The notes under the pieces were generated by a model. It ran no database searches. It had not been told where the DNA came from and was given only the letters and a program-made list of their open reading frames with translations. Shown here piece by piece: positions 16,335 to 46,256 of a stretch of 64,000 bases of DNA. Source of the stretch: Henriciella sp. (lineage in GTDB: Bacteria; Pseudomonadota; Alphaproteobacteria; Caulobacterales; Hyphomonadaceae). Position numbers and translations under genes: made by a program. The stretch lies in NCBI GenBank assembly GCA_013214545.1, contig JABSQB010000018.1:1-64000 (forward strand). The letters run 5' to 3'. Position 1 is the stretch's first letter. Each line of letters begins with the position of its first letter.

Positions 16335-16602
16335 TTCAGCGCCTTCACTAGATAGCAGTCGGGTCTCTCGAACAGCCTGAGGTCTCGCCCGCAATTTGGT
16401 TCGGGGATTTACGCCAGTTCGCGATCGAAATTGATATAGGTCGCTTTGAATACGCAGCAAAACTGAAACACCCGACTCTAGATTCTCATTTATCAGCCTA
16501 ACGGAGCAAGAACCGTGCAAATTTAGGCGATTCGGGCCGGTAATGCGCTCGATCGGCATGAAATCCTGAATTTGGGGGTATTTGGGCTGATTATGCGGTC
16601 AG

Positions 16603-17676: not shown

Positions 17677-17984
17677 CAAAAAGCCCTCGTGAACATCGAA
17701 ATCTCGACCTTAGTCGGCTTGCCTTGCAACCCCGAGCCAGTTTCCAATAGGCGACTTTATGCCCGCAATTCAACCAACTGCGACCGCGTTGTCCGCAGTG
17801 TGCGCATTCACCAATAACTGCGTTGGAAATCTGAAGCTTTATCTGGCATCTGAGAGCGGACTGATGCACGCTGTGAACATGGGGCCGATTGGCACGCGCA
17901 CTGCATGAGACGCGTATCGTTCGACATTGGTTCATACTGAGTCGCTAGATCGGCGATCAACGAAGTGGATGACAGAGATCGCTG
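17677..17984. other. divergent intergenic region between acyltransferase and second flippase
   Basis: About 308 nt without a credible gene. It must carry the promoters for the two divergent operons. I see one short inverted repeat, ACTGCG 17777-17782 with CGCAGT 17794-17799, but no convincing -35/-10 pair and no T-tract terminator. Confidence 0.4.
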
Positions 17985-19472: not shown

Positions 19473-19488
19473 ACCTAGCCTCAACCAA

Positions 19489-20433: not shown

Positions 20434-20536
20434 AACTCATCTACTCGCACTAATGGCCTGAAACTTGGGACCGAGACCCGACTGGCGTCAAGCTCGAAAG
20501 CAACTGGAACACCCCTCCACCGAGCCTGAGACGCGC

Positions 20537-21709: not shown

Positions 21710-24700
21710 TTAGTTTTCAGTTTCAGCCGAGAAATCCATCAGCAGTCGGCGGACCTGTTCTGCCATGTCGTCAATCGCCGGTTCGTCAAAGATCGTTGCG
21801 TGATTGGCATCCACGGTCATCGGAATGAACGACCGCGTCAAATGCTGGTCCCAGCCGAGAGAAGGCCCGAGATTGAGGTAGCGCAAATTGGTTCGCGCTG
21901 CGCGCACAATGACGACTTGCCCCTCATAGGGCTGAGGGCGATAGGCGTTGGCGGCAACGTGGAACGCGTCAAAGACACGCCAACTTGCCGCAACCAGTTC
22001 TGCGTCCTGATAGAGATCGCCTTTGAAGTTGGGCATCAGCTTCCCGACGACCGGCACTTTGCGTATCGCTGTACCAATCGTTTCGGCTGCAACGCTCGGG
22101 TGGAGTCGCGGCAAGTTTCTGACCCGGTCAATCATCCGGTTCTCGACTTCACCAGCATGCGGATGGATGGTGTCGAACATGATCAGCAGATCGACGGTTT
22201 CACCAATCTCTTTCAGCTGCTGAGCCATTTCGTAAGCCACGATGCCGCCGCCCGAATAGCCCGCCAATGTGTAAGGACCTCGAGGTTGGACCGAGCGCAT
22301 CACCTCGATATAGCGGCGCGCCATCTCAGGGATTGATTCAAGCGGGGTGAGCTTTGCGTCAGACCCGTAGGCCTGGAACCCGTAAATCGGACGCGTATCT
22401 GGCAATCGGTCCGCCAAGGACTTGAACTTCATGACATTGCCCTGCGCGCCATGGATCGCATAAATCCCGCGCAAGCCGGGTAGGCCATTCGTCAATTGCA
22501 CCAGGGGTGACCATTCCGCGATTTCGGTTTCGACTGTCGCGCCTTTCTCCGCCTGAACGGCACCGCTGACACCATGCTTGGCCAGGACAGCGGCAAGCTC
22601 AGCGATCGTTGGCGCTTCGAACAGCGTCGCAAGCGGCAGGGAAACCCCGTGCTTTTTGCGGATCGATGCAAACAATCTCACGCCAATCAGCGAATTACCG
22701 CCAAGGTCAAAGAAATCATCGCCGGTCCCGACTTTTTTGACTCCGAGAAGATCTGACCACGTCGCCGCAAGATCCAGCTCTACAGGGGTCTCTGGCTGCA
22801 AGTAATCGGAAGCAAGCTGGGGACGCTCGAAATTGCTGTCGTCGTTTTCGTCATCGCTTTCAGCGGACGAGTCTTGATCAAGCTGGCTGAGCCACACATC
22901 CGGGTCGACTGAAGATACAATGGTCTGGACCAGGCCGCTTTGCGACATGACACGACCGAATGCTTCGACGCCTTCATTTGGACGGATGCCTTGCAGGAGC
23001 AAGGCCTCCAGCGCTTCATTTTGCGCTGTATTTGTCCCGGCCGTTATCTTCGCTCCGCCGCTTGCAAAGGCTTCATCTGCCGCCAGGCGTTTCATGGTGA
23101 AGCGAAAGATCTCGGCAAAGACGTTGCCCGAAGCATCCGCCAAAGTGACATCAAAATAAGCGAGGCCGTCGCCGCTGCCCGGCAGGCAACGCACATGACT
23201 GAACACATGGGCCGGCATGTCGTCATAGACATGGACCCGGTCATAGCTGAGCGGGACATAGAATTCGCGGCTGAGATCGACGCCAGGAATAAGCTGCTGC
23301 ACGCCGCCCGTGGCCATATCCAGAATGGCCGGATGAAGACCGCCGCTTTCGAGGTCGGCTTGGAACTCATCGGCCAGTTGCAATTCGACCAGCGCTTCAC
23401 GCTCGCCATAGGCAACTTGCTTCATGTTCGCCCAACGTTGTCCGAAGCTCATGAAGTCCTGATCCAGGAAGCCGTCTTGCGATACCCAAGTCCGCACTTT
23501 GCAACGCTCAGCAAGTTTGTGCAGGTCGATCGCATCAGGCTGCGCAGTTTTCAGCTTTGCTGCATCACAGACCACCAGAGGCATATCATCGAGGTTGCTG
23601 CCATCACGGATTGAGAGTTCGGCGTGGCCGTTTCCGTCCCGAACGGCGTGCAGGCTCAGTCGCCGCGTCTCGCCATCCGGCACGACAAATGGCGCCAGGA
23701 AGGTCAGATTGGAGAGCTTGATCTTTTCGCCTGGGTAAAGATCCGCCGCCGCCGCGCGCGCCAGTTCCAGCATGGTCGTGCCAGAGAGCAGCGTGTTGCC
23801 ATCCTTGACGCGGTGCTCGCTGAGGATCCAGTCGCTTGCTTCAGACAGATCGCGAATAAACAGGCGTCCATTAGCAACATCCGTATAGCCGTCCCAAGCT
23901 GGGCTACGGCTCGGCAGATAGGGCAGTGTGCCACCTGATTGGACCTGTTGAGCGGCCTCTGCCATGCCGACGTCACGCCACGCATTCCAGTTTATGACCG
24001 CCGTTCGCCCCGCGGCGCGTTTGGTGCGCTGGCGCGCAAAGGCATCCAGAAAGGCGTTCGCGGCCGTGTAGTCGACTTGCCCGGGCAGTCCGAGAAAGGA
24101 TGCGACGGAGGAGAACATGACGAACAGGTCGAGATCTTCTGTGATCGCTTTGTCGAGATTGATGCTGCCCGCGACTTTCGGGGCGAGCAGGCGGCGCATC
24201 GAGACGGCATCCTTCACCATCAAGGGTGCATCATCCATGCTGCCCGCGGCGTGAATGACGCCGTTCAAAGCGCCCAGCTCGGTTCGAATGCTGTCGATCG
24301 CGTCCGAGAGCCCGTCAGCCTTCGTCACGTCACCTGCGACGACCATGACGTCAGCGCCTCGTTCACGCAGCTTGCGGACATGGCGGATGCGCTGCGCGAC
24401 TTGGCTGTCGATCGGATCGGAGAGGATCGACTCCCATTCTGATTCAGGTGGCAGGCCTTTGCGGGCCATCAAAGCAAGTTTGACCGGTTTAAGCGCACTC
24501 ATATGCTGCGCCACTTCCATGCCGATTCCGCTCAGGCCGCCGGTGATGAGATAGACGCCGTTTTCGCGCAGCCAGTCGGTGGATGGCACGTCTGCAGCTT
24601 CAATCGGGCTCGGCGATAGTGTTCGCACCCATCGCCCAGTGGTTCGCAAAGCGACCACGGACTCGCGCGGTTCGCTACGCAGTTCATCGCGCAAGCGTCC

Positions 24701-27700
24701 AAGCAACTCAGGCGTCCAGCGCTTGAGCAGTGTCTGACGCGGCAGGTCGATACAACGCGTTTTGATATGCGTGAGCTCACGCGGCGTGGTCAGGACCGGA
24801 CCCAGAGCCAGGGACTGGTACGGATCGCAGACTTCATTGTCGAGCTGCGCAAGGCGAGAGGTCAGGACTGAAAGCTGTACGGGCTCAGACCGGCTCGCCA
24901 GTGCTTGCACCAAGTAAGTTGGCTGAAGGAACAGGCGGTCCTGCTTCTTCTCATGCGTGCGCGACGACCGCCGGGCATCCTGGGTCGCGAAGATGATATG
25001 ATCTGGCGCGCCAGACGCCTCCTCAATCTCCTCAAGCACTTGAGCGAATTGTTCGCTGTCGGAAAAATTGATCGTCCAGGCTTGGTCGCTGGTTTGGTGC
25101 AAAGCGTCACCTGGCAGCACCGTATGCACGGTCTCGTCGCCTAACTGATTTTGCAGCTCAGCCACCAGTTTCGGCGCATGTCCGAAGATCACCCAGTTCC
25201 GCGCAAGGTCGGCCCGAGGCGTGCGCACCAGAGGAGCTTCGCGGAACGATAATTGCGCGAACCAGTCTTTAATCTCCGGGCGTTTCACCAAGGCGTCCGA
25301 CGTCGTCGCCGCCGTCTTGCGAGGCTCGACCCAATAGGAGTCGCGGGCGAACGGATAAGTTGGCAGAGGAATACGGTTGCGCAATTGGGTGCTGTAAAAC
25401 TCATCCCAGTCGACATCAGCGCCCGCCGCCCAGATCTTGCCGAAGCTCAGCAGTGCGAAATCCAGATCGCTCGCAGATTCCTGCGGGTGGCGCACCGTAT
25501 TGAACGCATAGCGAAACGGCGTTTCCTGCGCCTTGGCGAGCATAGAGAGCGTGCGCCCTGGGCCAATCTCAACCAGAACCGGCTCGCCGAGCGAGCGCAA
25601 AGTCTGCAAACCATCCGCGAAGCGAACTGTAGAGCGCAGATGATTGACCCAGTATTCCGGATCGCAGGCCTCATCAGGCGAAATCCATTTACCCGTCAGG
25701 TTCGAAACGAATGGCATGGCCGGGGCTTTGAAGGCGATCTTGCGGCACGCCGTCCGGAAGCGTTCCAGGATCGGATCAAGCATGCGCGAATGCGCGGCGA
25801 CATCGATGCGGATCGGTGTTGAGTCGATGTCTTGCTGGGTCAGCTTGGCTTGGAACGCGTCAATCTGATCTCGTGGCCCGGAAGCGACGCAAAGGTCCGG
25901 CGCATTCACCGCGGCGATATCAAGGCTCTCAGGGGCTAGCGCCCGGACATCCCCTTCAGACATCGGCACGCTGAGCATACCGCCCTGATCAATGCATTCG
26001 AACAGTTCGCCGCGCAGCATGACCAATGTCAGCGCGTCTTCCAGCGAGAACACGCCGGCTTTGCAGGCGGCGACATACTCGCCCATGCTGTGCCCGATAA
26101 AGGCATCCGGCTGCAGACCCCAGGATTCGTAAAGCTCGGCCAGAGCATAGGTCGTGGTGAACAGCGCCGGTAAAGTGAGTGAGGGTTGTTCAAGGGTGCG
26201 CGTCGCCGCTTCAACCTGATCAGCTGGCGGATACATCAGCGGTTTGAGATCCCGGCCCAGCTTCGGCGTGATAATGGCGAGGCATTCATCCACGGCCTCG
26301 CGATAAACTTCGTCCTGCTCGTAGAGCTCTCGTCCCATGTCGGCATATTGAGCGCCGCCACCGGGGAACATGAACACCGTCTTGGCGCGGTCTTTTCCGG
26401 CTTCGAGCGTCGCTGCCATCTTGTCAGATGGATCGCGCAGCCGCGCCGACGCTTCTTTAGCATTTGCGGCCACCACAACGCGGCGATGCGGCATCGGACG
26501 GCGTCCGAGCGCGAGCGTATAGGCGGTATCGGCAAGATCGGTGTCTGCATCGGCATCCAGAAAATCAGCCAGCTGGAGTGATGCGTCGTTCAGGGCTTCG
26601 GCCGTCTTTGCCGACAGGACGAGCAATTGCTTGTCGCGGGCATCTTCGCCCGGCAGCGCTTCCGGCGCTTCTTCAAGAATGACGTGGCAGTTCGTGCCGC
26701 CAGCGCCGAGTGCGGTGACACCGCAACGCAGCGGACCCTCAGCGGTCCAGTCTTTCAGACGGTCGTTTACGTAGAACGGACTGTCTTCCAAATTCATGGC
26801 CGGGTTCGGGGTTTCAAAGCCCAGACTTGGCGGCATTTGGCGATGCTTGAGCGCCATAACCGCTTTGATCAGCGAGGCGGCAGCTGCCGTTTCACCCAAA
26901 TGTCCGATATTCGATTTTACCGAGCCAATGCCGCAATAACCGGTTTTCTCCGTGTGCTGACCATAGGCTTCGTTGAGCGCTTCGACCTCAATCGGATCGC
27001 CAACCAGCGTGCCCGTGCCGTGCGTTTCAATGTATGTGATGCTTTCGCCCGGAACGTCCGCCGCTTTGAGAGCGTCAGCAATGACATTGGCCTGACCGTC
27101 GACACCTGGGGCAAGATAACCGACTTTCAGGGCGCCATCATTATTGATCGCAGAGCCTTTAACGACCGCGTGAATCGTATCGCCATCATCCAGGGCATCA
27201 TCGAGACGCTTGACGATCAGCGCGCCCGCGCCGCTGCCAAACACCGTGCCGGCGCTTTTGGCATCGAACGGACGGCAATGACCATCTGGCGAAAGGATTT
27301 CGCCGTCGCGATACATATAGCCCTGACCTTGTGGGAACAGGATCGTTGCGCCGCCGATCAGCGCCATATCGCACTCGCCCTGGCGCAGGCTTTGCGCTGC
27401 CATGTGCAAGGCGACGAGCGCTGAGGAACAGGCCGTCTGGACGTTCATGCTCGGCCCGCGAAGATCCATTTCATAGGAAACGCGCGTGGCCAGGAAGTTC
27501 ATGTCATTGCCAGTATGGCGGACCAGAAAGTCGCCCATGGAGCGCATGATTTCCGGGTGTGTGCGAACATTCTCGACATAATAGTCAGGCGCGCCCGCGG
27601 TCGCGAACACACCGACTTTGCCATCTTCTGGCAGGGCCTTGTAGCCGGCATTCTCAAACGCAGCCCAGGCAATCTCGAGGAAGACCCGATGCGCCGGATC

Positions 27701-27982
27701 CATGACCGAGGCTTCGCGCGGATTGAAGCCGAAGAAACTAGCATCAAACTTGTCGACATCGCTGAGCAAAGGGCAGACTTTGACATAGTCAGGATCATTG
27801 AGATCGGCTTCGCTCACACCTGCCGCGCGCAGCGCGTCGTCATCGAGCGGGACGATCGACTCGACTCCGTCACGAACATTGTTCCAGAACGTGTCGACAT
27901 TCGGCGCACCTGGAAAGCGCGCCGCCATGCCGATAATGGCGATATCTGTCGACTGAACTGGATGATCCCCGGTATCTGCCAT
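21710..27982 (-). CDS. type I polyketide synthase module, KS-AT-KR-DH-ACP-TE
   Basis: A 2090-residue single-module PKS. KS at about 12-440 has the TACSSA Cys185, His321 (ETHGTGT) and His361 (NIGHLG). AT at about 535-850 has FPGGGAQY and GHSMGEY (Ser632); the specificity motif reads VAAH, which does not decide between malonyl and methylmalonyl. A KR at about 1140-1340 follows (TGGLSGIG, Ser1291, Tyr1305). A DH-like domain at about 1375-1635 has His1390 and Asp1555, then come ACP Ser1764 (DLGGNSL) and a type I TE at about 1835-2085 (GYSGG Ser1910, Asp1937, His2061). KR before DH is unusual, and the DH motif has one extra residue and Ser in place of Pro. It starts 1 nt after the NRPS stop, so it should extend the NRPS product by one C2 unit and release it. 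Confidence 0.93.
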   Translation of the reverse strand: MADTGDHPVQSTDIAIIGMAARFPGAPNVDTFWNNVRDGVESIVPLDDDALRAAGVSEADLNDPDYVKVCPLLSDVDKFDASFFGFNPREASVMDPAHRVFLEIAWAAFENAGYKALPEDGKVGVFATAGAPDYYVENVRTHPEIMRSMGDFLVRHTGNDMNFLATRVSYEMDLRGPSMNVQTACSSALVALHMAAQSLRQGECDMALIGGATILFPQGQGYMYRDGEILSPDGHCRPFDAKSAGTVFGSGAGALIVKRLDDALDDGDTIHAVVKGSAINNDGALKVGYLAPGVDGQANVIADALKAADVPGESITYIETHGTGTLVGDPIEVEALNEAYGQHTEKTGYCGIGSVKSNIGHLGETAAAASLIKAVMALKHRQMPPSLGFETPNPAMNLEDSPFYVNDRLKDWTAEGPLRCGVTALGAGGTNCHVILEEAPEALPGEDARDKQLLVLSAKTAEALNDASLQLADFLDADADTDLADTAYTLALGRRPMPHRRVVVAANAKEASARLRDPSDKMAATLEAGKDRAKTVFMFPGGGAQYADMGRELYEQDEVYREAVDECLAIITPKLGRDLKPLMYPPADQVEAATRTLEQPSLTLPALFTTTYALAELYESWGLQPDAFIGHSMGEYVAACKAGVFSLEDALTLVMLRGELFECIDQGGMLSVPMSEGDVRALAPESLDIAAVNAPDLCVASGPRDQIDAFQAKLTQQDIDSTPIRIDVAAHSRMLDPILERFRTACRKIAFKAPAMPFVSNLTGKWISPDEACDPEYWVNHLRSTVRFADGLQTLRSLGEPVLVEIGPGRTLSMLAKAQETPFRYAFNTVRHPQESASDLDFALLSFGKIWAAGADVDWDEFYSTQLRNRIPLPTYPFARDSYWVEPRKTAATTSDALVKRPEIKDWFAQLSFREAPLVRTPRADLARNWVIFGHAPKLVAELQNQLGDETVHTVLPGDALHQTSDQAWTINFSDSEQFAQVLEEIEEASGAPDHIIFATQDARRSSRTHEKKQDRLFLQPTYLVQALASRSEPVQLSVLTSRLAQLDNEVCDPYQSLALGPVLTTPRELTHIKTRCIDLPRQTLLKRWTPELLGRLRDELRSEPRESVVALRTTGRWVRTLSPSPIEAADVPSTDWLRENGVYLITGGLSGIGMEVAQHMSALKPVKLALMARKGLPPESEWESILSDPIDSQVAQRIRHVRKLRERGADVMVVAGDVTKADGLSDAIDSIRTELGALNGVIHAAGSMDDAPLMVKDAVSMRRLLAPKVAGSINLDKAITEDLDLFVMFSSVASFLGLPGQVDYTAANAFLDAFARQRTKRAAGRTAVINWNAWRDVGMAEAAQQVQSGGTLPYLPSRSPAWDGYTDVANGRLFIRDLSEASDWILSEHRVKDGNTLLSGTTMLELARAAAADLYPGEKIKLSNLTFLAPFVVPDGETRRLSLHAVRDGNGHAELSIRDGSNLDDMPLVVCDAAKLKTAQPDAIDLHKLAERCKVRTWVSQDGFLDQDFMSFGQRWANMKQVAYGEREALVELQLADEFQADLESGGLHPAILDMATGGVQQLIPGVDLSREFYVPLSYDRVHVYDDMPAHVFSHVRCLPGSGDGLAYFDVTLADASGNVFAEIFRFTMKRLAADEAFASGGAKITAGTNTAQNEALEALLLQGIRPNEGVEAFGRVMSQSGLVQTIVSSVDPDVWLSQLDQDSSAESDDENDDSNFERPQLASDYLQPETPVELDLAATWSDLLGVKKVGTGDDFFDLGGNSLIGVRLFASIRKKHGVSLPLATLFEAPTIAELAAVLAKHGVSGAVQAEKGATVETEIAEWSPLVQLTNGLPGLRGIYAIHGAQGNVMKFKSLADRLPDTRPIYGFQAYGSDAKLTPLESIPEMARRYIEVMRSVQPRGPYTLAGYSGGGIVAYEMAQQLKEIGETVDLLIMFDTIHPHAGEVENRMIDRVRNLPRLHPSVAAETIGTAIRKVPVVGKLMPNFKGDLYQDAELVAASWRVFDAFHVAANAYRPQPYEGQVVIVRAARTNLRYLNLGPSLGWDQHLTRSFIPMTVDANHATIFDEPAIDDMAEQVRRLLMDFSAETEN

Positions 27983-27983: not shown

Positions 27984-30900
27984 CTACGCTACGCGGCCTT
28001 CTCGCTTCGCCCGGCGCTTGGCAGCAGCCTCTTCGCGGCGGTTTCGTTTCTTGTCATCATTTGCCGGCTTGGCACCTGGTCCGGTCGTCTCCTCGCTCAA
28101 GTGCGCGGCAAGCGTCTCGATTGTTGGATAACGGAACATCGAGACCAGAGAAACCCGTCGCCCAAGCTTCTTGGACAGGCGCTGATTGGCCTGTGCGGTC
28201 ATGATCGAGTTGGCACCGAAATCGAAGATATTGTCGCTTCGGCCGACTTGCGTCAGGCCAAGCAGCTCCATCCAGGTTTCGGCAATCATGGTCTCAAGCT
28301 CGTTCGACGGTGCCACATATTCGGTTTGAACCGGCGTGGATTCTACTGTCGGAGCCGGCAGCGCTTTACGATCAATCTTGCCGTTCGGCGTCAGCGGGAG
28401 GGTCTCCATAGCGACGAAAGCCGAGGGGATCATATAGTCCGGTAGGTGCTCCTTAAGATGCGCGCGCAATTGATCGATCAGTTGGTTCTGATCATTCGAC
28501 TGGGTCGCCGGTTGATTGGCATAGGCGCCTGGTTGATCGAGCTCTAGAACTTCAGCGTCGTATGATACGGCTTTGCCGCTTTGCGAGCTGTGTCGCAGAA
28601 CCACATCGAAGAGAGACGGATCATCGCGATTGAAGCGCGCCCAGGCAATTTCATAATCCGGGTGAAGCTCAAACAGAGCGCCTGGATCGATGCCAAGGCT
28701 GCGATCTTTGGCTAATGCATCACGCATTGCATCCGCGGTGACATCCTCGCCGGTTTCGAGTGACTGACGGGCCCCGTAGACCGGTGCGAGCCGCGCGTTC
28801 TGGAGGCCCTGCAGGAATAGGACGGGTTCGCCCGCAGCGAGCAAATCCTGAATGCCTGCTTCTGAGCTCGCGCTTTGCGGCGCTGGCAAATCCAGAGTGT
28901 CGCCCGTGGCCGCCCCAACGTGCAGTACGACGTCATATCTGAAATCTGTCATCTCATTGGCTTCAGCGCCGCGCTTCAAAGTGAGTGTCACCCCCGCCAG
29001 ACGCGGGATGTCGCGAACCAGGGCGTGGAAGAAATTCTCACCCAGCACGAGTTCGCTTTCGCGCGCCATTCGGGTCTCGATGCGAGCGCTTAGGGCTTTG
29101 GGATCGAGTTGCGCCGGTGCCTGATTCAGCTCAACCACTGTGTGGAAGGCGGCCAGCTGCTCGAGGCTTCGTACATCGCCGATGAAAATCTGACCGCCAT
29201 CTGACACGAGGTCACTCGCGCGGGTGATCACATCGGTGAGGTAATCGGCACTCGGGAAGTATTGCGCAACGGAGTTGATGACCACCGTGTCGAAAGACTC
29301 CTGCTCGAACTGTCCAATCGCGTGCGCGGGCAGTTTGCGCAGATCCGTCCTGGCCTGCTCCTCAGCGGTGAGTTCCTCAGAGATGCGCGTCAGAGCGTTC
29401 CCCGATAAGTCGATCCCTGTGTAGCGATCGACCGCGTCGAGAATGCCGTAGAGCACCATGCCGGTTCCGCAGCCGACTTCCAGGACACGCTTCGGGTCAA
29501 GATCGCGCACGTTTCGCGTGGTTGCGTCGCACCATTCGCGCATATGCTCGACCGGGATCGGCGCGCCAGTATAGCTGTCATTCCAGCCAGCAAAGTTGAA
29601 GCGCGCATCCGCGTCATCTTCGCTCTGCTGATAAGCGGTGTCCCACAGCGTCTGCCAATGCGTGACTGTGTCATCATTCCCCTGCTCGCTTTGCGGCGAG
29701 GTGTAATAGGCGACCAGTTGCGGTGCGCCATTATCGGTCCGGGCAGCAACAACGCTCTGCCAGATATCCGGGTGACGGCTCAGCTGAGTTTCAATCTCGC
29801 CAAGCTCGATCCGGTAGCCGTTGACTTTGACCTGCTGGTCCATGCGGCCGAGATACTCAATCTCTCCGCTCGCTTTGTAACGCGCGAGGTCGCCGGTGCG
29901 GTAGAGACGTTCACCGGGCGCATATGGGTCGTCGATGAACCGCTCCGCCGTCAGGTCGTCGCGGCCGAGATAGCCAGGCACAACGCCTTCGCCGCCAATG
30001 CACAGCTCTCCAGCCTCGCCAAGCCCGACCATTTGGCCATTGGCATCCAGCAAGCGGATCGTTGTGTTGGCGATCGGACGACCGATCGTGATCGGCTCAT
30101 TGGCTCGAACAGGCGACGTCGTAGACCAGATCGTCGTCTCGGTCGGCCCGTACATATTGGTGAATGATCCGGTCAGTGTCTTGTGCAGCGTCTCAGCGAG
30201 ATCGTTTGGCAGGGCTTCACCGCCCAGCATCAGATGCTTCAGTGATCCAAACTGCTCGAGCACCTCGGCATCATCAATCATCATACGCGCCATGGATGGC
30301 GTGCACTGCAGGTGCGTAATCTGGTGCGCCTTGAACGTCTCACCAACCGAGACGAATTGCTCAGGCTCAGCGCTCGACCCAACAGAATTGGCAAGCTCAC
30401 GCAGGCGATTGAGATGCGGCAAGTTCTTCAGAACCGTGTCAGACTCGATGCCAAAATCGACCAGGCAGGCAATCTCATTAACGCCGATATCTTTCAGTTT
30501 CTCGACCATGCCCAGGGCATGCTCAGGCGAACCAAACAGGCCAGCCGTTTCGAAATAGCGATCAAACGCGTGATCCATCAGAGCTGCGATGTCTTCGTCG
30601 GTAAACTGGGACGTATCCAGCTGCGCCTCAGGGCCTTCCAGGGATGGCCGTTTGAACGCTGGGAACATCCATGGCGCAACTTTGACCAGATCGAACGAGC
30701 TTTGCAGATAGTTGCAGAATGGCTGACGGGCGATCTCGCGGGCCTGCTCTGTATCCTCACACACGAATGTGTGCAGCATAAGCGAGACCTGGCCTGGCCC
30801 TTCGAAGCCGGAATCGGCGCGCGCTTCGCGATAGGCGGCGAGCTTCGTCCGCAAGTCTTCCAAATCCTGACCCAGCATATTGGTCAGAATGTTCGCGCCG

Positions 30901-33827
30901 AGGCGACCAGCAGATTTGAACGTCTCGATATTGCCAGCCGACGCAATCCAGATCGGCGGGCGATCCTGGATCGGGCGCGGGAAGGTTGAGACCTTGATCA
31001 TCTCACCTTCGCCATTTGCGACTTCCACCTCTTCACCAGCCCAAAGCTTGAAGACGGTGTCGATGCTCTCAACCATGATTTCGCGGCGGCGTTCATAGTT
31101 TTCCGGCATCAGGGCGAAATCATTTGCGTGCCAGCCAGACGCGAAAGACAGACCAACCCGGCCATTCGACAACTGGTCCAGGACAGACCAGTCCTCAGCC
31201 ACCCGGACCGGATTGTGCAACGGCAAAACAACACTGCCTGCGCGCAGGGCGACGTTTTCAGTAATCGTGGCAAGCGCCGCAGTGGTCACCGCTGGGTTCG
31301 GGAAAATGCCGCCAAATTCATGGAAGTGACGCTCCGGCGTCCAGACAGACTGGAAGCCGTTGGCATCGGCAAACTTCGCGCCTTCCAGCAGCAGTTTGTA
31401 AGTCTCGCCAGGCTGCGCATCGCCTTGCGATGACGAGAAATAGAACATGCCGAAATCCATCGGCGTGTCAGACACTTCTACAGTGGCTGCATTCGACAGC
31501 GTGCTGCGGTCCATCTCGCCCTGGATGACGACTTCAAATCCGCGCGCCAGAGTCCAAAAGATTTCGAGCACTGAAATGTCGAAACTGACGCTTGTGACCG
31601 CGAGCCAGACGCCTGGCTCAGTGCCAATTACATCATCCATGCCCGCAAAGAAATTTGAGACATTGCGATGTGCAACCTTCACGCCTTTCGGGCGCCCGGT
31701 GGAGCCGGATGTGAAGATCACATAGGCAAGATCATCCGCGGTCACAGATGTCTTCGGCGCAGCACACTCGGTATCGCTGGCAATCGATTCCAAAGTCACC
31801 AGATCTGCGCCTTCAAAACGAAGGTCGGGCGCTTGGGCAGCTCCTGTCAGCAGCACTTTCGCGCCAGAATCTTCCATCATGATTGCGAGGCGATCACGGG
31901 GATAGGACGGATCCATCGGAACATAGGCCGCGCCCGCTTTCATCACACCCAGCAAAGCTACGACGAGCTCAGTCGAGCGCTTTGCGCAAACAGCAACGAA
32001 ATCGCCAGGCTGGACGCCTTGTTCGATCAGCGTGTGGGCGATCTGGTTGGCGCGTTTTTCAAGCGCGTTATAGGTCAGCGAAGAGCTCTGAAACACCACA
32101 GCCGTCGCATCTGGTGTGCGAGCGACTTGTGCTTCGAATTGTTGGTGCACGCACTGATCACTGGCGAACGCCTTTGCCGGTCCGGTCGAGAGATCGAGCA
32201 GCGCCCGCTTTTCTGATTCCGGCAGCAGGCTCAGCTTCGCGACAGGCGTTTCGGGTTGCGCTTTGGCTTCGGCGAGCAAGGTGTCGATCCGCGCCGCCAT
32301 GGCTTTGACCGCTGACGCGGAAATAGCGTTCTCGTCATAGCTGAACGTGATCTGGTCTGACGTGTCATTGGCGTGAAGCGTGAGCGCGGTTCCAGGCAGG
32401 AGATCTGCCGTGCCGTCGAGTTTAACGCCGATTGGCAGTGGTTTGCGCGAACCATAGTCGGCACGCAATTGTTCATAGCGACCGTAAATGTCGCGCGCGA
32501 ATGTCCCGCGCTTATCCTGCTGCGCCAGAGCTTCGTCGACCTGTGCTTGCACGGCGCTGAAGGACGACTCCAGCGCGATATCGACACGCATTGGAGTTTG
32601 GTCCGCATAGAAACGATCGCCTGATTCCGGCAAGGTTTTAGCCAGCGCCAAGTCGAATGCTGACGCCTCTCCGGCCCGTGCAATATATGCGGCGAAGGCG
32701 CTGATATAGTCTTGCGCCGTATGCTGACGGTCGATCGAAATCTCGCCTTTGGCTGGGTTTTTTTCAGACTCGCGAACTTGCGCCAGAGCAGGGGCAATCT
32801 GCGTCGCAAGCCGGCGCATCCAGAACCGCTCGTGCTTTGTCAGCGAAGCGTCTAGATCAGCGAGGGCAGCCTCTTTAGCGCCCGGTGCGGCGATCGAGGT
32901 ATTTGCGCTCTCTGATAATGCGTCCGTTTCAATGGCCGACCCGTCAATCCGTGCCAGACCACTCAGACGTACGGCGCCATCCTTGGCAGATACAGTCAGC
33001 GTATTGGATGCCGCGGCCAGAACTTGTCCGGGGGCTGATGGCGATGCTTGCGGGACCGCATCAACATGCTCGACCAGATAGACGGCATCGCCGAGCTGGA
33101 CTTTCGGCAGGCACATCCAATTGTCTTCGCGACCGAGATTCAATCCGCGAACGAGGCGGCTGATTTCCGCAACCGTCTGATCGAAATCGATCAGGCCAAG
33201 GCCAGGGCGGTCAGAGCGAACGTGAAAACCGGTTTGCGCGCCTGGGGCACGGCTCGGCATAGGCATGCCGCTTTCGCGCTCAGCCTCCAGAGCAACAATC
33301 AGATCGGCAAATGTCTCGCGGCAGGCATTGGCGCATTTCACGCCGAGCGAAAAGGCCGTGTCTTCGTCGGAAATGGTGAACGAATTCTGGAGCAGGATAT
33401 CACCGCCATCGACGTCTGCGGTCATGGCGTGCCAGGTTACGCCATGGGTATCTGCGCCATCGATAATCGCCCATGATGTCGCATTAAAGCCGGCATAATC
33501 CGGCAGTGGCGAGTCATGATAATTAATCGCTCGCTGGGTCGGCAAGGCGACCAGATCATCCGGTAAAATCGCGTGATTGATGATCGAAAACAGATAATCA
33601 AACGGGGCGCCTGAGAGCTGCTCCACAAGATTTGACTTTGGCGAAAGCAGCGGAATATCGGCACTTGTCGCCCAAGCCTCGACTTCCGAACAATCACTGA
33701 CAATGGCATGCGCTTGATGTCCAGCAGCGATCCACTGTTGGATGCAATCGATAAGCACCTGCGTGCTCCCGATGAAAACAGCTTTATTTTGCGTCCCTGA
33801 CATTTTTTTGTCTAATCTACCCAGCAT
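27984..33827 (-). CDS. NRPS: formyltransferase, half C domain, A domain interrupted by LLM monooxygenase and methyltransferase, PCP
   Basis: A 1947-residue protein. Residues 10-300 form a formyltransferase (Asn102/His104 in INYHDSPLP, Asp140 in VDGGDIL). Residues 330-545 look like the C-terminal half of a condensation domain without the HHxxxDG half. The A domain begins near 555 (A3 FTSGSTGRPKG 705-715, A4 at 749). It is broken at about 785-1150 by a luciferase-like FMN monooxygenase of the MupA/Atu3671 type (VWTPERHFHEFGG), resumes (A5 MYGPTETT 1225-1232, A7 YRTGDL, A8 at 1327-1346), and is broken again at about 1385-1640 by an SAM methyltransferase (LEVGCGTG). A9/A10 follow (Lys1817), then PCP Ser1874 and a basic tail. 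The specificity residues suggest glycine. The start may instead be ATG at residue 9; neither has a clear ribosome site. Confidence 0.93.
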   Translation of the reverse strand: MLGRLDKKMSGTQNKAVFIGSTQVLIDCIQQWIAAGHQAHAIVSDCSEVEAWATSADIPLLSPKSNLVEQLSGAPFDYLFSIINHAILPDDLVALPTQRAINYHDSPLPDYAGFNATSWAIIDGADTHGVTWHAMTADVDGGDILLQNSFTISDEDTAFSLGVKCANACRETFADLIVALEAERESGMPMPSRAPGAQTGFHVRSDRPGLGLIDFDQTVAEISRLVRGLNLGREDNWMCLPKVQLGDAVYLVEHVDAVPQASPSAPGQVLAAASNTLTVSAKDGAVRLSGLARIDGSAIETDALSESANTSIAAPGAKEAALADLDASLTKHERFWMRRLATQIAPALAQVRESEKNPAKGEISIDRQHTAQDYISAFAAYIARAGEASAFDLALAKTLPESGDRFYADQTPMRVDIALESSFSAVQAQVDEALAQQDKRGTFARDIYGRYEQLRADYGSRKPLPIGVKLDGTADLLPGTALTLHANDTSDQITFSYDENAISASAVKAMAARIDTLLAEAKAQPETPVAKLSLLPESEKRALLDLSTGPAKAFASDQCVHQQFEAQVARTPDATAVVFQSSSLTYNALEKRANQIAHTLIEQGVQPGDFVAVCAKRSTELVVALLGVMKAGAAYVPMDPSYPRDRLAIMMEDSGAKVLLTGAAQAPDLRFEGADLVTLESIASDTECAAPKTSVTADDLAYVIFTSGSTGRPKGVKVAHRNVSNFFAGMDDVIGTEPGVWLAVTSVSFDISVLEIFWTLARGFEVVIQGEMDRSTLSNAATVEVSDTPMDFGMFYFSSSQGDAQPGETYKLLLEGAKFADANGFQSVWTPERHFHEFGGIFPNPAVTTAALATITENVALRAGSVVLPLHNPVRVAEDWSVLDQLSNGRVGLSFASGWHANDFALMPENYERRREIMVESIDTVFKLWAGEEVEVANGEGEMIKVSTFPRPIQDRPPIWIASAGNIETFKSAGRLGANILTNMLGQDLEDLRTKLAAYREARADSGFEGPGQVSLMLHTFVCEDTEQAREIARQPFCNYLQSSFDLVKVAPWMFPAFKRPSLEGPEAQLDTSQFTDEDIAALMDHAFDRYFETAGLFGSPEHALGMVEKLKDIGVNEIACLVDFGIESDTVLKNLPHLNRLRELANSVGSSAEPEQFVSVGETFKAHQITHLQCTPSMARMMIDDAEVLEQFGSLKHLMLGGEALPNDLAETLHKTLTGSFTNMYGPTETTIWSTTSPVRANEPITIGRPIANTTIRLLDANGQMVGLGEAGELCIGGEGVVPGYLGRDDLTAERFIDDPYAPGERLYRTGDLARYKASGEIEYLGRMDQQVKVNGYRIELGEIETQLSRHPDIWQSVVAARTDNGAPQLVAYYTSPQSEQGNDDTVTHWQTLWDTAYQQSEDDADARFNFAGWNDSYTGAPIPVEHMREWCDATTRNVRDLDPKRVLEVGCGTGMVLYGILDAVDRYTGIDLSGNALTRISEELTAEEQARTDLRKLPAHAIGQFEQESFDTVVINSVAQYFPSADYLTDVITRASDLVSDGGQIFIGDVRSLEQLAAFHTVVELNQAPAQLDPKALSARIETRMARESELVLGENFFHALVRDIPRLAGVTLTLKRGAEANEMTDFRYDVVLHVGAATGDTLDLPAPQSASSEAGIQDLLAAGEPVLFLQGLQNARLAPVYGARQSLETGEDVTADAMRDALAKDRSLGIDPGALFELHPDYEIAWARFNRDDPSLFDVVLRHSSQSGKAVSYDAEVLELDQPGAYANQPATQSNDQNQLIDQLRAHLKEHLPDYMIPSAFVAMETLPLTPNGKIDRKALPAPTVESTPVQTEYVAPSNELETMIAETWMELLGLTQVGRSDNIFDFGANSIMTAQANQRLSKKLGRRVSLVSMFRYPTIETLAAHLSEETTGPGAKPANDDKKRNRREEAAAKRRAKREGRVA

Positions 33828-33909: not shown

Positions 33910-34611
33910 CTAAGTTTTCGCGTGATAGGCGAGTTTTAGCTCTTTACCACCCGATTTCACCCCCACCGCAAATCGCAAACCCGGTCTGATTTCGTGCGCC
34001 TCGAAAACCCAGTTTTTCGCGGCTTCAGGATCCCCATGGACACGCAACAGACCCGGCGCTTCACCGAACGGGGTCATGTCAAAATCTTCGAGGGGAAATG
34101 AGACCCCGAGGCCCAGGCCTTTGATAAAGGCTTCCTTGAGCGTCCAGTATCTGAAAAAGGCCTGCGGAATGTCTTCTGACGCCACCTCAGAGAGATGCTG
34201 ACGCTCGACCGGCGACAAGGGCCAGTCCATCTCCTCGCGGCTCAAGGGCTTAACCGCTTCCAGATCGAGCCCGATCTCTGCCTGCTCGCAAATGGCAAGC
34301 GCGGTCCAGGACCCTTCGTGGCTCAGGCTAAAGTGCAGGTTCGCGCCCGGCAAACGCAACTTGCCATACTCATTCTCTTCGAATTGCAAATCGACAGCCG
34401 TTTTTCCTGTAATCGATGCCAGCCGTTCGCGAACCCTGGCGCGGGAGATCGCCCAGAACGTGCCTTTCTGACGAGAGAACTGGCGGTCGCGTCGGGCCAG
34501 CTCTTCGTCATTTAACAGCGTGAACAGGTGATCAGCTTCACCGACATAGTCGGCATTATCCCAGAGCCAGATTTCGACCGAAACCTCAGAATTTTCAGAT
34601 GCAGGGGTCAT
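33910..34611 (-). CDS. Sfp-type 4'-phosphopantetheinyl transferase
   Basis: A 233-residue member of the Sfp/Gsp group with the two metal/CoA motifs IGLDLE and RYWTLKEAFIKGLGLG, plus the HFSLSHEG motif before them. It moves phosphopantetheine from CoA to the serine of carrier domains, here PCP Ser1874 and ACP Ser1764 of the two megasynthases. It lies 82 nt upstream of the NRPS on the same strand and is most likely the first gene of that operon, so the cluster carries its own activating enzyme. The length is normal for a Sfp-type enzyme. Confidence 0.92.
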   Translation of the reverse strand: MTPASENSEVSVEIWLWDNADYVGEADHLFTLLNDEELARRDRQFSRQKGTFWAISRARVRERLASITGKTAVDLQFEENEYGKLRLPGANLHFSLSHEGSWTALAICEQAEIGLDLEAVKPLSREEMDWPLSPVERQHLSEVASEDIPQAFFRYWTLKEAFIKGLGLGVSFPLEDFDMTPFGEAPGLLRVHGDPEAAKNWVFEAHEIRPGLRFAVGVKSGGKELKLAYHAKT

Positions 34612-34727: not shown

Positions 34728-35864
34728 TCACCTTGAAGCCAGGATGAATTTCCCAACCTGCACGAGATCGCGAATGTTGCCTTCCTTTGCCGCGGCCTTG
34801 ATCCGCCAGTACATTGACCGCCCCAGTTGCCGAACCACCTGACGTCCAAGCGAGGACGAGGTTTTCAGCTGCTGGACTTTTTGTTTGATGTCCGCCGACT
34901 CCAGCAGCGGCGCGCAGCCGAGGCCGTAGCTGGTCGAGATCCGGATCAACTGGATCTCATAATCGCTCAGCGTGTCGCCGAAAGCCGGATCGATTGCGCA
35001 CCATGCTTCCAGGGCTTCGTCCCACAGGACATGGCGCCCGAATACGGAGCCTTTGCGGATCATGGCGCTGCGCGCACGCGTCTCCGCGTGTTCAGGATCG
35101 TTCCATATTCTGGCAGGTACCAGTTCATCGTCGGAAAGGTCTGCCAAAAGCGGCATAATGATCTGGCGGTGATACTTGATCCATTTCTTGTTCGATTCCT
35201 CGATCGAAAATCGCTCTTTAGCTGAGCCGCGTGTGCCCTGGTGCTCACGATGTAGAAAGACGGTTTGTGGCAACACCCGGCCCACGCCCTGCCGCGTCAG
35301 CCTGAGCAGCATTTGATAATCCTGCGACCGCGTAAGAGATTCATCGAACGGTCCGACCTGATCATAAAGTGATTTTCGGACGATCAATCCGGGTTGGAAA
35401 ATGTGGCAGCCATCAAGCGCGTCAGAGAAAATCTCGTCTGGGCGCGAAGCTTTGGAATAACCTGGCGCCTTGCGAATGATTTCGCCTGACTTGGGATCGG
35501 TGAAGAAATCCTCGTGCAGGCCCGCGCAGAATTCGAGCTCTGGATCGGTTTCCAAAGCCTGCATCAACTGCTCGCATGCATCTGGTAGCACCAGATCATC
35601 ATCATCGCAAATCCAGACGCAATTCCCCTCGATCATTGTCAGGGCGAGATTGAGCGCCGCGGCTTTTCCGCCATTCTCCTTGCGGTGATAGCGAACCTTG
35701 TCTCCAAATGCGGCGACGCGTTGCGCCGTCGCATCGGTCGAACCGTCGTCCAGGACCAGAATTTCATCAATCGGGCGGGTTTGCTTCAGCAAGCTATCGA
35801 GCGTGTCCGAAATCAGATCGGCACGGTTATAAGTCGGCAGGATGACGCTGACGCGATCGCTCAC
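34728..35864 (-). CDS. GT2-family glycosyltransferase
   Basis: A 378-residue GT2 enzyme beginning SDRVSVILPTYNRADLISDTLDSL with VLDDGSTDATAQ and the acidic WICDDDDLVLPD metal site. The reading frame extends to 36026, but the extra 54 residues are not GT-like; GTG 35864 has an AGGGGG site seven bases upstream and is chosen. The C-terminal third is basic and helical. It lies upstream of the PPTase-NRPS-PKS genes on the same strand, so it may mark the edge of that operon or belong to the polysaccharide genes; family and context favour the latter. Confidence 0.88.
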   Translation of the reverse strand: MSDRVSVILPTYNRADLISDTLDSLLKQTRPIDEILVLDDGSTDATAQRVAAFGDKVRYHRKENGGKAAALNLALTMIEGNCVWICDDDDLVLPDACEQLMQALETDPELEFCAGLHEDFFTDPKSGEIIRKAPGYSKASRPDEIFSDALDGCHIFQPGLIVRKSLYDQVGPFDESLTRSQDYQMLLRLTRQGVGRVLPQTVFLHREHQGTRGSAKERFSIEESNKKWIKYHRQIIMPLLADLSDDELVPARIWNDPEHAETRARSAMIRKGSVFGRHVLWDEALEAWCAIDPAFGDTLSDYEIQLIRISTSYGLGCAPLLESADIKQKVQQLKTSSSLGRQVVRQLGRSMYWRIKAAAKEGNIRDLVQVGKFILASR

Positions 35865-36169
35865 AGGTTCCCCCTTCTGACCCTTTCTTGCTTCAAATCT
35901 CGCGTGCTGCAAACACATTCCAGCACGACCGATTCGAATGCTGCCAATCCCAAATTTGCCCCCCGAACGACAACATGAAACCGTTCGACATAGTGGCTGG
36001 CGCCCGCAAGATACATGCCAAGGCAACTGCCATTATGCCTTTGTTTTATTGCACTTTAATGGCCGCTCACTGACCAGTCAAAAAACGGATGAATAAGCGC
36101 CTGTCTTGGCATATGATTTGCTCAGATTTTAGCTGATTTTCCGCTCGGTGAGAAACGCCCGATTTGACG
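35865..36169. other. divergent intergenic region between two glycosyltransferase genes
   Basis: About 305 nt, relatively A+T rich towards the right, with no credible coding frame. A TTGGCA at 36106-36111 could be a -35 box for the rightward gene, but the matching -10 is poor. No hairpin terminator was seen. Confidence 0.35.
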
Positions 36170-37327
36170 ATGAAGTTCGACGCCCTGATCCTTACAGATC
36201 CCCGCTTTACCGGCGGGACCTCTGCTGCGGTCGCTGCGGACGTAAAGGCGATGTCAGCGGCAGGGCTCAATATCGGCCTCGCGCTGATCGAAGCGCAGGG
36301 GTTTTTTCTCGACACCGAGACACCAAATGCGGCCGTCTTGAGCCTTCTCGATCTGCCTGGCGTGACCGAGGTTCAGCTCGGCAGCTCGCAAAGTGCCAGA
36401 TGCGATATTGCGTTTTTCCATCATCCCTCAATGTTCGAAAATCCGGTCAAACATGGCTTGCAGATCGAAGCCATGCGCAGCGTTCTCATCGCGCACCAGC
36501 CTTTGTTTCTCGGCGATAGCGCGCTTGCCTTTGATCCCTTCAGAGTCCAGCGCAATGTCCGCAAACAGTTCGGGCAAAGCTTGCTCTGGGCACCTGTCTC
36601 CGGTCTTTGCCGCGAACAGTTTCGGTCTTTTGCGCCCATGCTTCGGATGACACAGGAAGATTGGCCAAATGCGTTCGACGTCAGCGCCTGGAGTCCACAG
36701 CGCGCCAAATTGCAAACTCCAACCCTGACAATCGGTCGTCATGGTCGCGCGCATCCCGATAAATGGCCTGCATCCGGCAAGGAAATCAGCCTCAGCCTGC
36801 CGGCTGGCCCGGAGACCAAGGTGAGTGTCATGGGCGCGGATCGCGATTTTCTTATGGCAATGGGCGTTGATATCTCGGCTTGGTCGGTTCTGGATTTCAA
36901 CGAAATCCCAGTCCCCGACTTCCTCGATGGTCTGGACGTATTTTCCTATCATCACGCGCCGAGCTGGGTGGAGTCTTTTGGCCGCACGATCGCCGAAGCG
37001 ATGCTGATGAACGTACGCTGTATTCTTTCGCCGGCACTTAAAGCCACATTTGGACCGCATGCGCTCTACGGAACGCCGGAAGAGGTCCCCGCCATTCTCG
37101 ATCATATTCGAGCCAATCTGGCTGCTGAACGCCAGGCTGCAGAAGCGGCCCGCGATTTTTGTATCAGCGCGTTTTCAACCGAAGCGATCATTAGCCGGTT
37201 CGAAACTTTGAAGTCCGATGAAGGCACCGTGTCGAGAAATCCGAAACCGAAAGTCTCGCCAATGATTGCGGCCAAGAAACTGATTGGGTTTCGACGTCGG
37301 CGTTGGCGCGAACAGAGAGGCGCTTGA
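36170..37327 (+). CDS. GT-B type glycosyltransferase (GT4-like)
   Basis: A 385-residue protein with a two-domain GT-B layout. The N-terminal domain has LILTDPRFTGGTSAAVAADV, and the C-terminal domain carries an E-x7-E motif, ESFGRTIAE, near the donor site, then GTPEEVPAIL. Sequence similarity to classical GT4 enzymes is limited, so the family is assigned on the motif. It probably adds a sugar to the lipid-linked repeat unit in the cytoplasm. It is followed after 2 nt by a sulfotransferase, which suggests that the sugar it adds, or a nearby one, is sulfated. Confidence 0.75.
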   Translation: MKFDALILTDPRFTGGTSAAVAADVKAMSAAGLNIGLALIEAQGFFLDTETPNAAVLSLLDLPGVTEVQLGSSQSARCDIAFFHHPSMFENPVKHGLQIEAMRSVLIAHQPLFLGDSALAFDPFRVQRNVRKQFGQSLLWAPVSGLCREQFRSFAPMLRMTQEDWPNAFDVSAWSPQRAKLQTPTLTIGRHGRAHPDKWPASGKEISLSLPAGPETKVSVMGADRDFLMAMGVDISAWSVLDFNEIPVPDFLDGLDVFSYHHAPSWVESFGRTIAEAMLMNVRCILSPALKATFGPHALYGTPEEVPAILDHIRANLAAERQAAEAARDFCISAFSTEAIISRFETLKSDEGTVSRNPKPKVSPMIAAKKLIGFRRRRWREQRGA

Positions 37328-37329
37328 GC

Positions 37330-38187
37330 ATGTCAAAGACTCCACCGCTTTTCATTGTCGGTGCACCGCGATCGGGTAATACGCTAACCCGCCGCGTGCT
37401 GATGGCTTCGGAACAAATCTACATTCCTCCGGAAACCTATGTGATCGGCGAAATCCTGTCGCGCTGGCGCAAATGGGGTCGCCTCGATTGGCGCGAGCGC
37501 GTTTGGCTATTCTGCGCCTATTTTGAACGCCACCCGCATTTTGAAGATCTGGAGATTGAGTCGCTCAATCCGTTCTCTGAACAAGCCTGCGCGCTCGCGC
37601 GAAGCCAGCAGACAGTGCATGCGCTGATCGATCTGTTTTACGCCTTCATGACGCACGAGCATGGCTATACCGCAGCGCGTTGGGGGGACAAAACACCGTG
37701 GAACACAGTGCACCTCAAGCACATCGTGAAGACCTATCCAGACGCCTATTATCTGTATCTGAAGCGCGATGGCCGCGATGTTGTGGCCTCGCAAATGAAG
37801 TCAGACATGCGCGATTTCGAAAACTCGGCTCAGCGCTGGATCGATGCCAACGCCTCGTGCCGACGCCATCTTAAACGCGCGCGTCGGACGCATCTCGAAA
37901 TCGCCTATGAAGATCTGGTGACAGATCCGGAAAGCGTTTTCCGGTCAATTTTCGCTTGGGCGGATCTCGAGTTTGCACCGGAGCATCTGACCAAAGTACC
38001 AGAGAAGCTCGGCGATGTTGGGCGCCATGCACACCACGCGGCTGTGACCCAGCCGATCACCGCGCGCTCGATTGGAAAATGGCAGGAAAGCCTGACCGCG
38101 GATGCATTCGACCACCTGCCGCCTGCTTTCAGCGAAATGATGCAAACACTCGGCTATGGTACAGATAGTTCTGGCACAGCCGGGTAG
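37330..38187 (+). CDS. PAPS-dependent sulfotransferase family protein
   Basis: A 285-residue sulfotransferase with the 5'-phosphosulfate loop in LFIVGAPRSGNTLTRRVL near the N-terminus and a 3'-phosphate-binding segment, YLKRDGRDVVASQMKSDM. Such enzymes transfer sulfate from PAPS to sugars or other acceptors. It lies 2 nt after the GT-B gene and is probably translationally coupled, so a sulfated polysaccharide is likely. ATG 37330 is the first start giving the conserved N-terminus. Related 'sulfotransferase family' proteins in capsule loci sometimes have unproven substrates. Confidence 0.85.
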   Translation: MSKTPPLFIVGAPRSGNTLTRRVLMASEQIYIPPETYVIGEILSRWRKWGRLDWRERVWLFCAYFERHPHFEDLEIESLNPFSEQACALARSQQTVHALIDLFYAFMTHEHGYTAARWGDKTPWNTVHLKHIVKTYPDAYYLYLKRDGRDVVASQMKSDMRDFENSAQRWIDANASCRRHLKRARRTHLEIAYEDLVTDPESVFRSIFAWADLEFAPEHLTKVPEKLGDVGRHAHHAAVTQPITARSIGKWQESLTADAFDHLPPAFSEMMQTLGYGTDSSGTAG

Positions 38188-38208
38188 CTATTCAGTTTGG
38201 CTCAGATC

Positions 38209-39135: not shown

Positions 39136-39152
39136 GATCGCTTTCCTCCGCC

Positions 39153-42705: not shown

Positions 42706-42734
42706 AATCGACCACCACGTTCTGTATCATCAAT

Positions 42735-43769: not shown

Positions 43770-43930
43770 TGGTTCCACTTGTTAAGTCCGAGCACCCATC
43801 TCGCAGCGGCGCAAATACGCCTCACGCTCGTTGCCGCGTTGCGTACAAGTCTTATGCCAGTCTGCACGAGGTTAAAGGCCGCGCAACCGGTGCGTGCCCC
43901 ATTTTGATACAGGCGCTGCGACGTCCAGGG

Positions 43931-44893: not shown

Positions 44894-44928
44894 GGTCTGG
44901 CGTAGCCTTGGGTTGAAGCGATTGCAGT

Positions 44929-46203: not shown

Positions 46204-46256
46204 ACCGTCCAGATTGTGCTATCAATGCGCAATTGGAGTAGAGTGGGAACAAACCG

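Follow-up and report, generated by a model that had tools for sequence, protein, structure and literature searches.

The window analysed here, 64,000 nucleotides at positions 1 to 64,000 of contig JABSQB010000018.1 (assembly GCA_013214545.1) of Henriciella sp., encodes a nonribosomal peptide synthetase (NRPS) in which a monooxygenase (MO) and a methyltransferase (MT) were both confirmed to lie within one otherwise intact adenylation (A) domain. The NRPS, a partner polyketide synthase (PKS) and a phosphopantetheinyl transferase (PPTase) sit inside a complete Wzx/Wzy exopolysaccharide locus. This setting, together with the partner PKS, is more informative than the double insertion alone, and went unmentioned in the finding of a preliminary description made from the sequence. 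We propose, at what we judge to be an even chance, that the two proteins form an NRPS–PKS line dedicated to the surrounding locus, making a formylated, methylated and oxidised glycine-derived C4 acyl decoration.

Both insertions lie within one adenylation domain

The gene and the parts of its product are listed below, residue numbers being those of the protein.

27984-33827, minus strand: NRPS open reading frame (ORF), 1947 aa, ATG start
32913-33827, minus strand: formyltransferase (FT) domain with N-x-H...D catalytic residues, residues ~1-305 (PF00551/PF02911)
32193-32870, minus strand: C-terminal half of a condensation domain, N-terminal lobe missing, residues ~320-545 (hhalign)
31512-32162, minus strand: first part of the A domain, motifs A1-A4, residues ~556-772 (PF00501 at 564-774, motifs)
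30378-31460, minus strand: MO, flavin mononucleotide (FMN)-dependent and luciferase-like, at A4/A5, residues ~790-1150 (TIGR04020, PDB 6KET)
29652-30356, minus strand: second part of the A domain, motifs A5-A8, residues ~1158-1392 (TIGR01733 stretch 1160-1360, motifs)
28728-29645, minus strand: MT, an S-adenosylmethionine (SAM) methyltransferase, at A8/A9, residues ~1395-1700 (PF08242, PDB 5WMM)
28353-28490, minus strand: C-terminal A-domain motifs A9-A10, residues ~1780-1825 (PF13193, LPDYMIP, NGKIDR)
28083-28295, minus strand: peptidyl carrier protein (PCP) domain with GANSI, residues ~1845-1915 (PF00550)

The core motifs of the A domain were located at residues 706 (A3), 749 (A4), 1224 (A5), 1273 (A6), 1309 (A7), 1327 (A8), 1795 (A9) and 1815 (A10). 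The MO, at 792-1143, falls between A4 and A5; its TIGR04020 match scored 486.3 bits against a curated NCBIfam cut-off of 244.45, and among PDB entries it matched 6KET (PuwE) with E 9.9e-109. For a flavin reductase (PF01613) that could serve as partner, a search of the same genome gave a single short partial match. The MT, of class I, falls between A8 and A9, with the SAM motif LEVGCGTG kept at 1449 and Methyltransf_12 matched by Pfam at 1449-1546. Its sole PDB match at E <= 1e-5 was an NRPS chain, 5WMM (E 3.8e-44), a match that does not settle the acceptor atom; 5WMM is the structure of TioS, whose A domain houses a backbone N-methyltransferase.

In the uncut protein the best AMP-binding stretch was 564-774; TIGR01733 matched 1160-1360 with the second half of its profile. 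When both inserts were excised, the A domain matched TIGR01733 in a single stretch over positions 1-409 of 409, at 443.9 bits against a cut-off of 317.4, and it matched solved NRPS A domains, best of all that of LgrA. AlphaFold models were too poor for use, both for the A core with the MO (mean pLDDT 30.7) and for the stretch that separates FT from A (mean pLDDT 44.9).

Read in order, the protein comprises FT, the half condensation domain, A1 to A4, the TIGR04020 monooxygenase, A5 to A8, the methyltransferase, A9 and A10, and the PCP. Pfam placed Formyl_trans_N at 85-168 and Formyl_trans_C at 211-300, AMP-binding_C at 1780-1817 and PP-binding at 1848-1910, with GANSI read at 1871. The N-x-H...D residues of the FT are kept in the window and in the aligned FT-bearing relatives with the N terminus present. 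Pfam gave no match for residues ~320-545, which hhalign (probability 95.7, E 8.5e-9) placed on columns 262-469 of a condensation-domain profile with 471 columns. The reading frame is also intact in five relatives (G015, G024, G028, G012 and G086), so the architecture is no sequencing accident.

The preliminary description had an N-terminal FT and an A domain split at A4/A5 by a luciferase-like FMN monooxygenase and again between A8 and A9 by a SAM methyltransferase. These statements hold: the FT gave PF00551/PF02911 matches and kept its catalytic residues, the TIGR04020 match is flanked by A4 and A5, the core motif positions agree with the second split, profile searches and motifs put neither enzyme outside the A domain, and the core is intact without them. 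Every domain in the order it gave was recovered; the half condensation domain was left off that list, and its end for the MT, ~1640, must be moved, as the MT-homologous part reaches ~1690-1700 in alignment with the nearest relatives.

In PheA numbering, and leaving out the final K, visual reading of the aligned binding pocket gave D I L Q M G M I W, which looks like a glycine-type code. Its residues are largely common to the aligned relatives, the Streptomyces sequence (L081) differing. On this basis, the A domain probably loads glycine.

The NRPS–PKS pair in its exopolysaccharide locus

The remaining features of the locus, from the PKS outwards, are as follows.

21710-27982, minus strand: partner type I PKS of 2090 aa, beginning one base past the stop codon of the NRPS, with ketosynthase (KS), acyltransferase (AT), ketoreductase (KR), dehydratase (DH), acyl carrier protein (ACP) and thioesterase (TE) domains in the order KS-AT-KR-DH-ACP-TE
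33910-34611, minus strand: Sfp-type PPTase (PF01648)
34728-36026, minus strand: GT2 glycosyltransferase adjoining the PPTase (PF00535)
19489-21562, minus strand: two alpha/beta-hydrolase (esterase-like) genes downstream of the PKS (PF20434)
17985-19472, plus strand: Wzx-type flippase 2 (PF13440), whose best match borders the PKS in G012 and G028
6105-17679, strand unassigned: left part of the polysaccharide locus, with hexapeptide transferase, Gfo/Idh, two DegT aminotransferases, epimerase, GT2, pyruvyl transferase, Wzx 1, deacetylase, GT8 and acyltransferase
37303-55863, strand unassigned: right part of the polysaccharide locus, with sulfotransferase, four GT2, Wzz/kinase, GH16 and porin, and with Wza (51361-51957), Wzy (53453-54736) and the initiating sugar-phosphate transferase (55150-55863)

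When the PKS was aligned with ten homologs (11 sequences in all), the active-site motifs of KS, AT, KR, ACP and TE were found in the window sequence; the Deinococcus homolog showed no TE motif in this alignment. Flanks were readable in six A(MO,MT) family members besides the genome of the window, A(MO,MT) denoting an A domain with both inserts. In this genome, G015, G024 and, over two contigs, G010, the locus is common nearly gene for gene. Most of it is shared by G028, including Wzx 2, PKS, NRPS, PPTase and GT2, without the pyruvyl transferase, deacetylase and acyltransferase. The PPTase stays beside the NRPS in G010, G012, G015, G024, G028 and G086. A GT2 match was found in all six PKS-bearing members among 29 of the genus, the G012 copy having one internal stop and lying far from the NRPS; among the 23 PKS-less members, G001 and G022 match GT2 at only 32-33% identity.

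The relative G001, in whose whole genome no PKS match was found, retains the right-hand part of the locus, GT2b to Wzz and Wzy and further on (54-83% identity), and over 60 kb, at the thresholds used, gave no match to DegT2, Wzx 2, the esterases, PKS, NRPS, PPTase, GT2 or sulfotransferase. From these comparisons, the assembly line occupies a strain-variable part of the polysaccharide locus.

Recurrence of the polysaccharide setting

The setting was then compared across 14 mutually related FT–A(MO) loci, all FT-bearing, 13 of them from a 398-genome sample of the phylum and one (G836) from a 385-genome sample of the class. This selection left out G471 and G434, which have no detected FT, and G299, G342 and G276, in which the MO lies outside such an A domain. 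At 11 of the 14 loci, at least five polysaccharide genes lay within about 50 kb, a threshold fixed after the table had been seen. None of 20 control stretches of 20 kb held any polysaccharide gene, the test stretches having a length of about 50 kb (41 kb in one case). The controls were taken from 15 genomes, namely G471, G015, G028, G086 and 11 of the 14 tested, and tests and controls were scored with the same reference proteins, taken from the window and from annotated plasmid loci already recognised as polysaccharide loci. A PKS homolog adjoins the NRPS, or lies one labelled glycosyltransferase away, at all 14 loci.

Among plasmids, 8 of the 11 FT–A(MO) records examined are annotated with surrounding polysaccharide genes (two Aminobacter, Shinella, two Ruegeria, two Paracoccus and Parasedimentitalea). 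At six A(MO) loci without detected FT (G471, G434, Deinococcus, Streptomyces, Nostoc and Burkholderia glumae) only 0-1 such genes were counted, those other than G471 being read over 18-38 kb. On a tree of these loci, from which G010 is absent, the polysaccharide setting occurs in all 12 rows of one clade and in the window's own subclade, the rows without this label including short reads of 9.5-20 kb (L071, L061, L065 and L079); on this tree the setting needs two origins.

Two further kinds of locus were noted. In five single-insert relatives (L061-L065, from G080, G079, G085, G067 and G047) a Wzx-type flippase lies near the NRPS–PKS pair, with no other reference polysaccharide gene in 20 kb. 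On the Deinococcus actinosclerus plasmid CP029777.1 (L114), the A(MO)–PCP protein and the PKS are adjacent, with an annotated polysaccharide biosynthesis gene ~3 kb upstream.

Tentatively, and with a little less assurance than our proposal for the window itself, we suggest that Alphaproteobacteria use a dedicated NRPS–PKS line for a previously unknown acyl decoration of secreted polysaccharides, that glycine is formylated, oxidised and, within the family of the window, also methylated by the single polypeptide of its opening A domain, and that the line was recruited into exopolysaccharide loci at least twice.

Proposed pathway and its alternatives

In the proposed pathway, the PPTase would arm the carrier domains and the A domain would load glycine onto the PCP. 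One polypeptide may then act on the PCP-bound glycine, the FT formylating the amine, the MT methylating it and the MO hydroxylating the residue; with the nitrogen blocked by formyl and methyl, the MO would be expected to act on carbon. As in LgrA-type starters, an FT with N-x-H...D precedes the first A domain and no working condensation domain is present; the half that the window protein has cannot condense, and the NRPS would thus be a starting module. The PKS is predicted to add one malonyl-type unit, reduce it and possibly dehydrate it, and the TE would release or transfer the short C4 amino-acyl product, approximately a 4-(N-methylformamido)-hydroxybutanoyl or -butenoyl unit. The sequence itself shows the parts, their integrity and the locus; the atoms modified, the order of the steps and the acceptor are predicted. 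The acyl group may be attached to the repeat unit of the polysaccharide at one of its amino or hydroxy groups, and the amino sugars made by the DegT enzymes would be plausible acceptors.

For the MO and MT, a different chemistry is conceivable: an oxime-type starter, in which the MO would oxidise the glycine nitrogen and the MT would O-methylate it, as proposed for necroxime, the FT being idle or acting elsewhere. This has a precedent in necroxime, whose oxygenase, DH and MT domains are proposed, in the available part of PMC7318616, to work on a glycine primer. The FT of the window has nevertheless kept its catalytic residues, and an oxime nitrogen cannot be N-formylated; moreover, many relatives have FT–A(MO) without any MT. 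The structural relative of the MT, 5WMM, is an N-methyltransferase, which also argues against O-methylation, and we consider an oxime starter improbable.

The locus also admits the idea that the NRPS–PKS pair provides the polysaccharide with a lipid-like anchor or carrier, as type I PKS genes (wcbR/rkpA) occur in capsular polysaccharide clusters according to the available part of PMC3908369. Pfam detected no enoylreductase (ER) domain in the window PKS; this protein terminates in a TE and receives its substrate from an NRPS for one amino acid. A short polar acid is therefore to be expected, not a long chain, and we regard an anchor as very improbable.

Several observations weigh against a polysaccharide decoration. 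In the first DH motif of the window PKS, Ser stands in place of Pro. Its AT motif, VAAHS, leaves the choice of extender unit unsettled. The enzyme attaching the product was not identified, and we know of no polysaccharide structure for these strains. The genes accompanying the line are not strictly tied to it: G023 and G027 carry GT2 (49% identity) without a PKS, both esterases are missing from the G028 locus, and close kinship of the window GT2 with the GT2 that intervenes between PKS and NRPS in Rhodobacterales was unsupported, at 23% identity. Nor is the setting universal. Three of the 14 sampled loci scored low (one polysaccharide gene at G176, none at G446 and G836), as did, by the reference set, the other three plasmid records (Rhizobium BG6 with three, Methylobacterium bullatum with one and Aliiroseovarius with none). 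Within the window's family, G012 has a Wzx 2 match beside the PKS, its other polysaccharide genes lying ~30-50 kb off, and the flanks of G086 hold zero reference-set polysaccharide genes in 50 kb; there (L070, 330-19532) the A(MO,MT) NRPS–PKS–PPTase genes stand beside superoxide dismutase, FeoB and a TonB-dependent receptor.

Such placements would suit a line that releases its product as a free small molecule, such as a signal or an N-formyl-N-hydroxy chelator, and whose genes do no more than travel in exopolysaccharide islands. The iron-uptake neighbours of the G086 copy and the position of the G176, G446 and G836 copies outside polysaccharide loci are in keeping with this, as is the TE that ends the PKS, and an N-formyl with an N-hydroxyl group would form a metal-binding hydroxamate. 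On the other hand, the tree points to two separate placements in polysaccharide loci, on a Ruegeria plasmid the genes PKS-GT2-NRPS-PPTase are packed end to end, in the window's genus the line sits in a part of the locus missing from G001, and no TonB receptor was seen among the window ORFs scanned. A free product is accordingly judged unlikely, though the least unlikely of the three alternatives, and the polysaccharide decoration is preferred.

Distribution of the double insertion

In a sample of 150 relatives, TIGR04020 scored above its cut-off in 12 genomes; in G010, where the NRPS gene is split over two contigs, the match is divided between them. Both inserts were found in eight genomes, namely that of the window, G015, G024, G028, G012, G086, G076 and G010; the N terminus of the G076 protein is cut by a contig end, leaving its FT unseen. 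Five others (G080, G079, G085, G067 and G047) have FT–A(MO)–PCP without MT.

The 398-genome phylum sample, which overlaps with the other genome samples, held TIGR04020 in 18 other genomes. Of these, 13 have FT–A(MO)–PCP. In G434 no FT was detected with the A(MO), and G471 has A(MO,MT)–PCP with a condensation-like N terminus in place of the FT; in the other three (G299, G342 and G276) the MO lies outside such an A domain. With 13 of 398 genomes, FT–A(MO)–PCP lacking MT is thus commoner than the double insertion. No further double insertion was seen in samples of 274 and 185 genomes, in 149 genomes of the family of G471 besides G471 itself, or in the 385-genome class sample, where the MO-A2-MT query was run with a limit of E <= 1e-80, two candidates of each genome were scored, and double insertions may have been missed. 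At new MO loci of these further samples, domains were read within at most 4 kb, and at G836 within 50 kb.

In a plasmid collection, 80 records had the MO at E <= 1e-40. The MO-A2-MT query was covered to at least 80% at one place (E <= 1e-100) in 2 of 72,556 plasmid records, both from B. glumae; these plasmids, like G471, have A(MO,MT) without FT. In one of them, NZ_CP099586.1 (L112), an otherwise unrelated NRPS (12670-20925, 2751 aa) carries MO and MT in its second A domain. The neighbours of the B. glumae NRPS are a thioester reductase, a fatty acyl-AMP ligase, two acyl-CoA dehydrogenases, a P450 and an FMN reductase.

The preliminary description had called the combination unusual and expected few homologs with both inserts, if it was novel. 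Rarity was borne out by the seven further relatives among 150, the single G471 among 18 and the two of 72,556 plasmid records. Uniqueness was not, the double insertion recurring in those relatives, in G471 and in B. glumae.

Two other arrangements were encountered. At L109 (G799:C1:2366535-2367572) a monooxygenase of the same family occurs in the order A1-A2-MO-AC, between A5-A8 and A9/A10, unlike the A4/A5 site. On a plasmid of Streptomyces sp. NBC_01343 (L081) the A(MO) NRPS adjoins a flavin reductase and annotated aminoadipate/LysW and methylaspartate metabolism genes.

History of the insertions

In a tree of the A1-MO-A2 core, G471 falls into one group with the doubly interrupted members of the window's family (97/94), and B. 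glumae, a long branch, groups with G434 (97/93). Holding all double forms, B. glumae included, as one clade was only just rejected on this core (p-AU 0.043), and the same constraint on the MT alone gave no decision (p-AU 0.27). Two origins of the double insertion are thus only weakly favoured over a single one that includes B. glumae. The entry point of the MO is identical in the aligned sequences from Alphaproteobacteria, Deinococcus, Nostoc, Streptomyces and Burkholderia. This suggests that the A(MO) chimera is old and arose once, and that it acquired the MT later, perhaps twice.

Relation to known systems

The NRPSs MtaG and MelG of myxothiazol and melithiazol biosynthesis have, like the window protein, a monooxygenase in an A domain. 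That of MtaG carries out glycine alpha-hydroxylation. Neither is known to have an FT or a second insertion at A8/A9; there the interrupted domain ends the chain, whereas in the window it would start one. A 2020 survey of interrupted A domains is said to include A domains with two MTs.

Monooxygenase and methyltransferase insertions in A domains are published, at sites that include A4/A5 and A8/A9 (PMC8097286, PMC11355689 and PMC8949500, in their available parts). The A4/A5 site shared with the myxothiazol-type enzymes is named in the first of these, and the MT of the window occupies the same A8/A9 loop as those of TioS, McyA and KtzH in the second, so the preliminary description was right that each kind of insertion was known separately. 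The available part of PMC11355689 also names doubly modified A domains, ColG with two MTs and engineered double-MT domains; the insertions it lists are methyltransferases.

The FT of the window resembles the F domain of the linear gramicidin starter, which lies in the initiation module and formylates the amino acid on the next carrier domain (PMC8949500, available part); unlike that starter, the window protein has a half condensation domain between FT and A and an interrupted A domain. An oxygenase and an MT are proposed to act on a glycine primer in the necroxime, lobatamide and oximidine starters too. Those, compared here by description only, differ in using oxime chemistry and trans-AT PKSs, and an FT is unmentioned in the available part of PMC7318616. 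With RkpA/WcbR the likeness is one of locus kind only, a type I PKS inside a polysaccharide locus; unlike the window PKS, these have no NRPS partner mentioned in the part of PMC3908369 available. In the literature within reach, to which subscription papers mostly did not belong, we found no account of FT–A(MO,MT), none of an A domain bearing both inserts and none of FT–A(MO) NRPS–PKS systems in polysaccharide loci.

If the double insertion works, one polypeptide would perform four reactions on one glycine (loading, formylation, oxidation and methylation) and would offer a natural template to those who wish to engineer A domains interrupted by enzymes other than methyltransferases. If the link to the polysaccharide is true, assembly-line chemistry would feed cell-surface glycans, adding a new class of substituent to biofilm and exopolysaccharide chemistry, and the genes would serve as a genomic marker for seeking such substituents.

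Other genes of the locus

At 6105-8744, the hexapeptide transferase, the Gfo/Idh dehydrogenase and a DegT aminotransferase lie together, a trio that we take to resemble the WbpB/D/E kind of set for an amino-sugar uronic acid. The sulfotransferase at 37303-38187 lies inside the locus, with matches in G010, G015, G024, G028 and G012, and suggests that the polysaccharide is sulfated.

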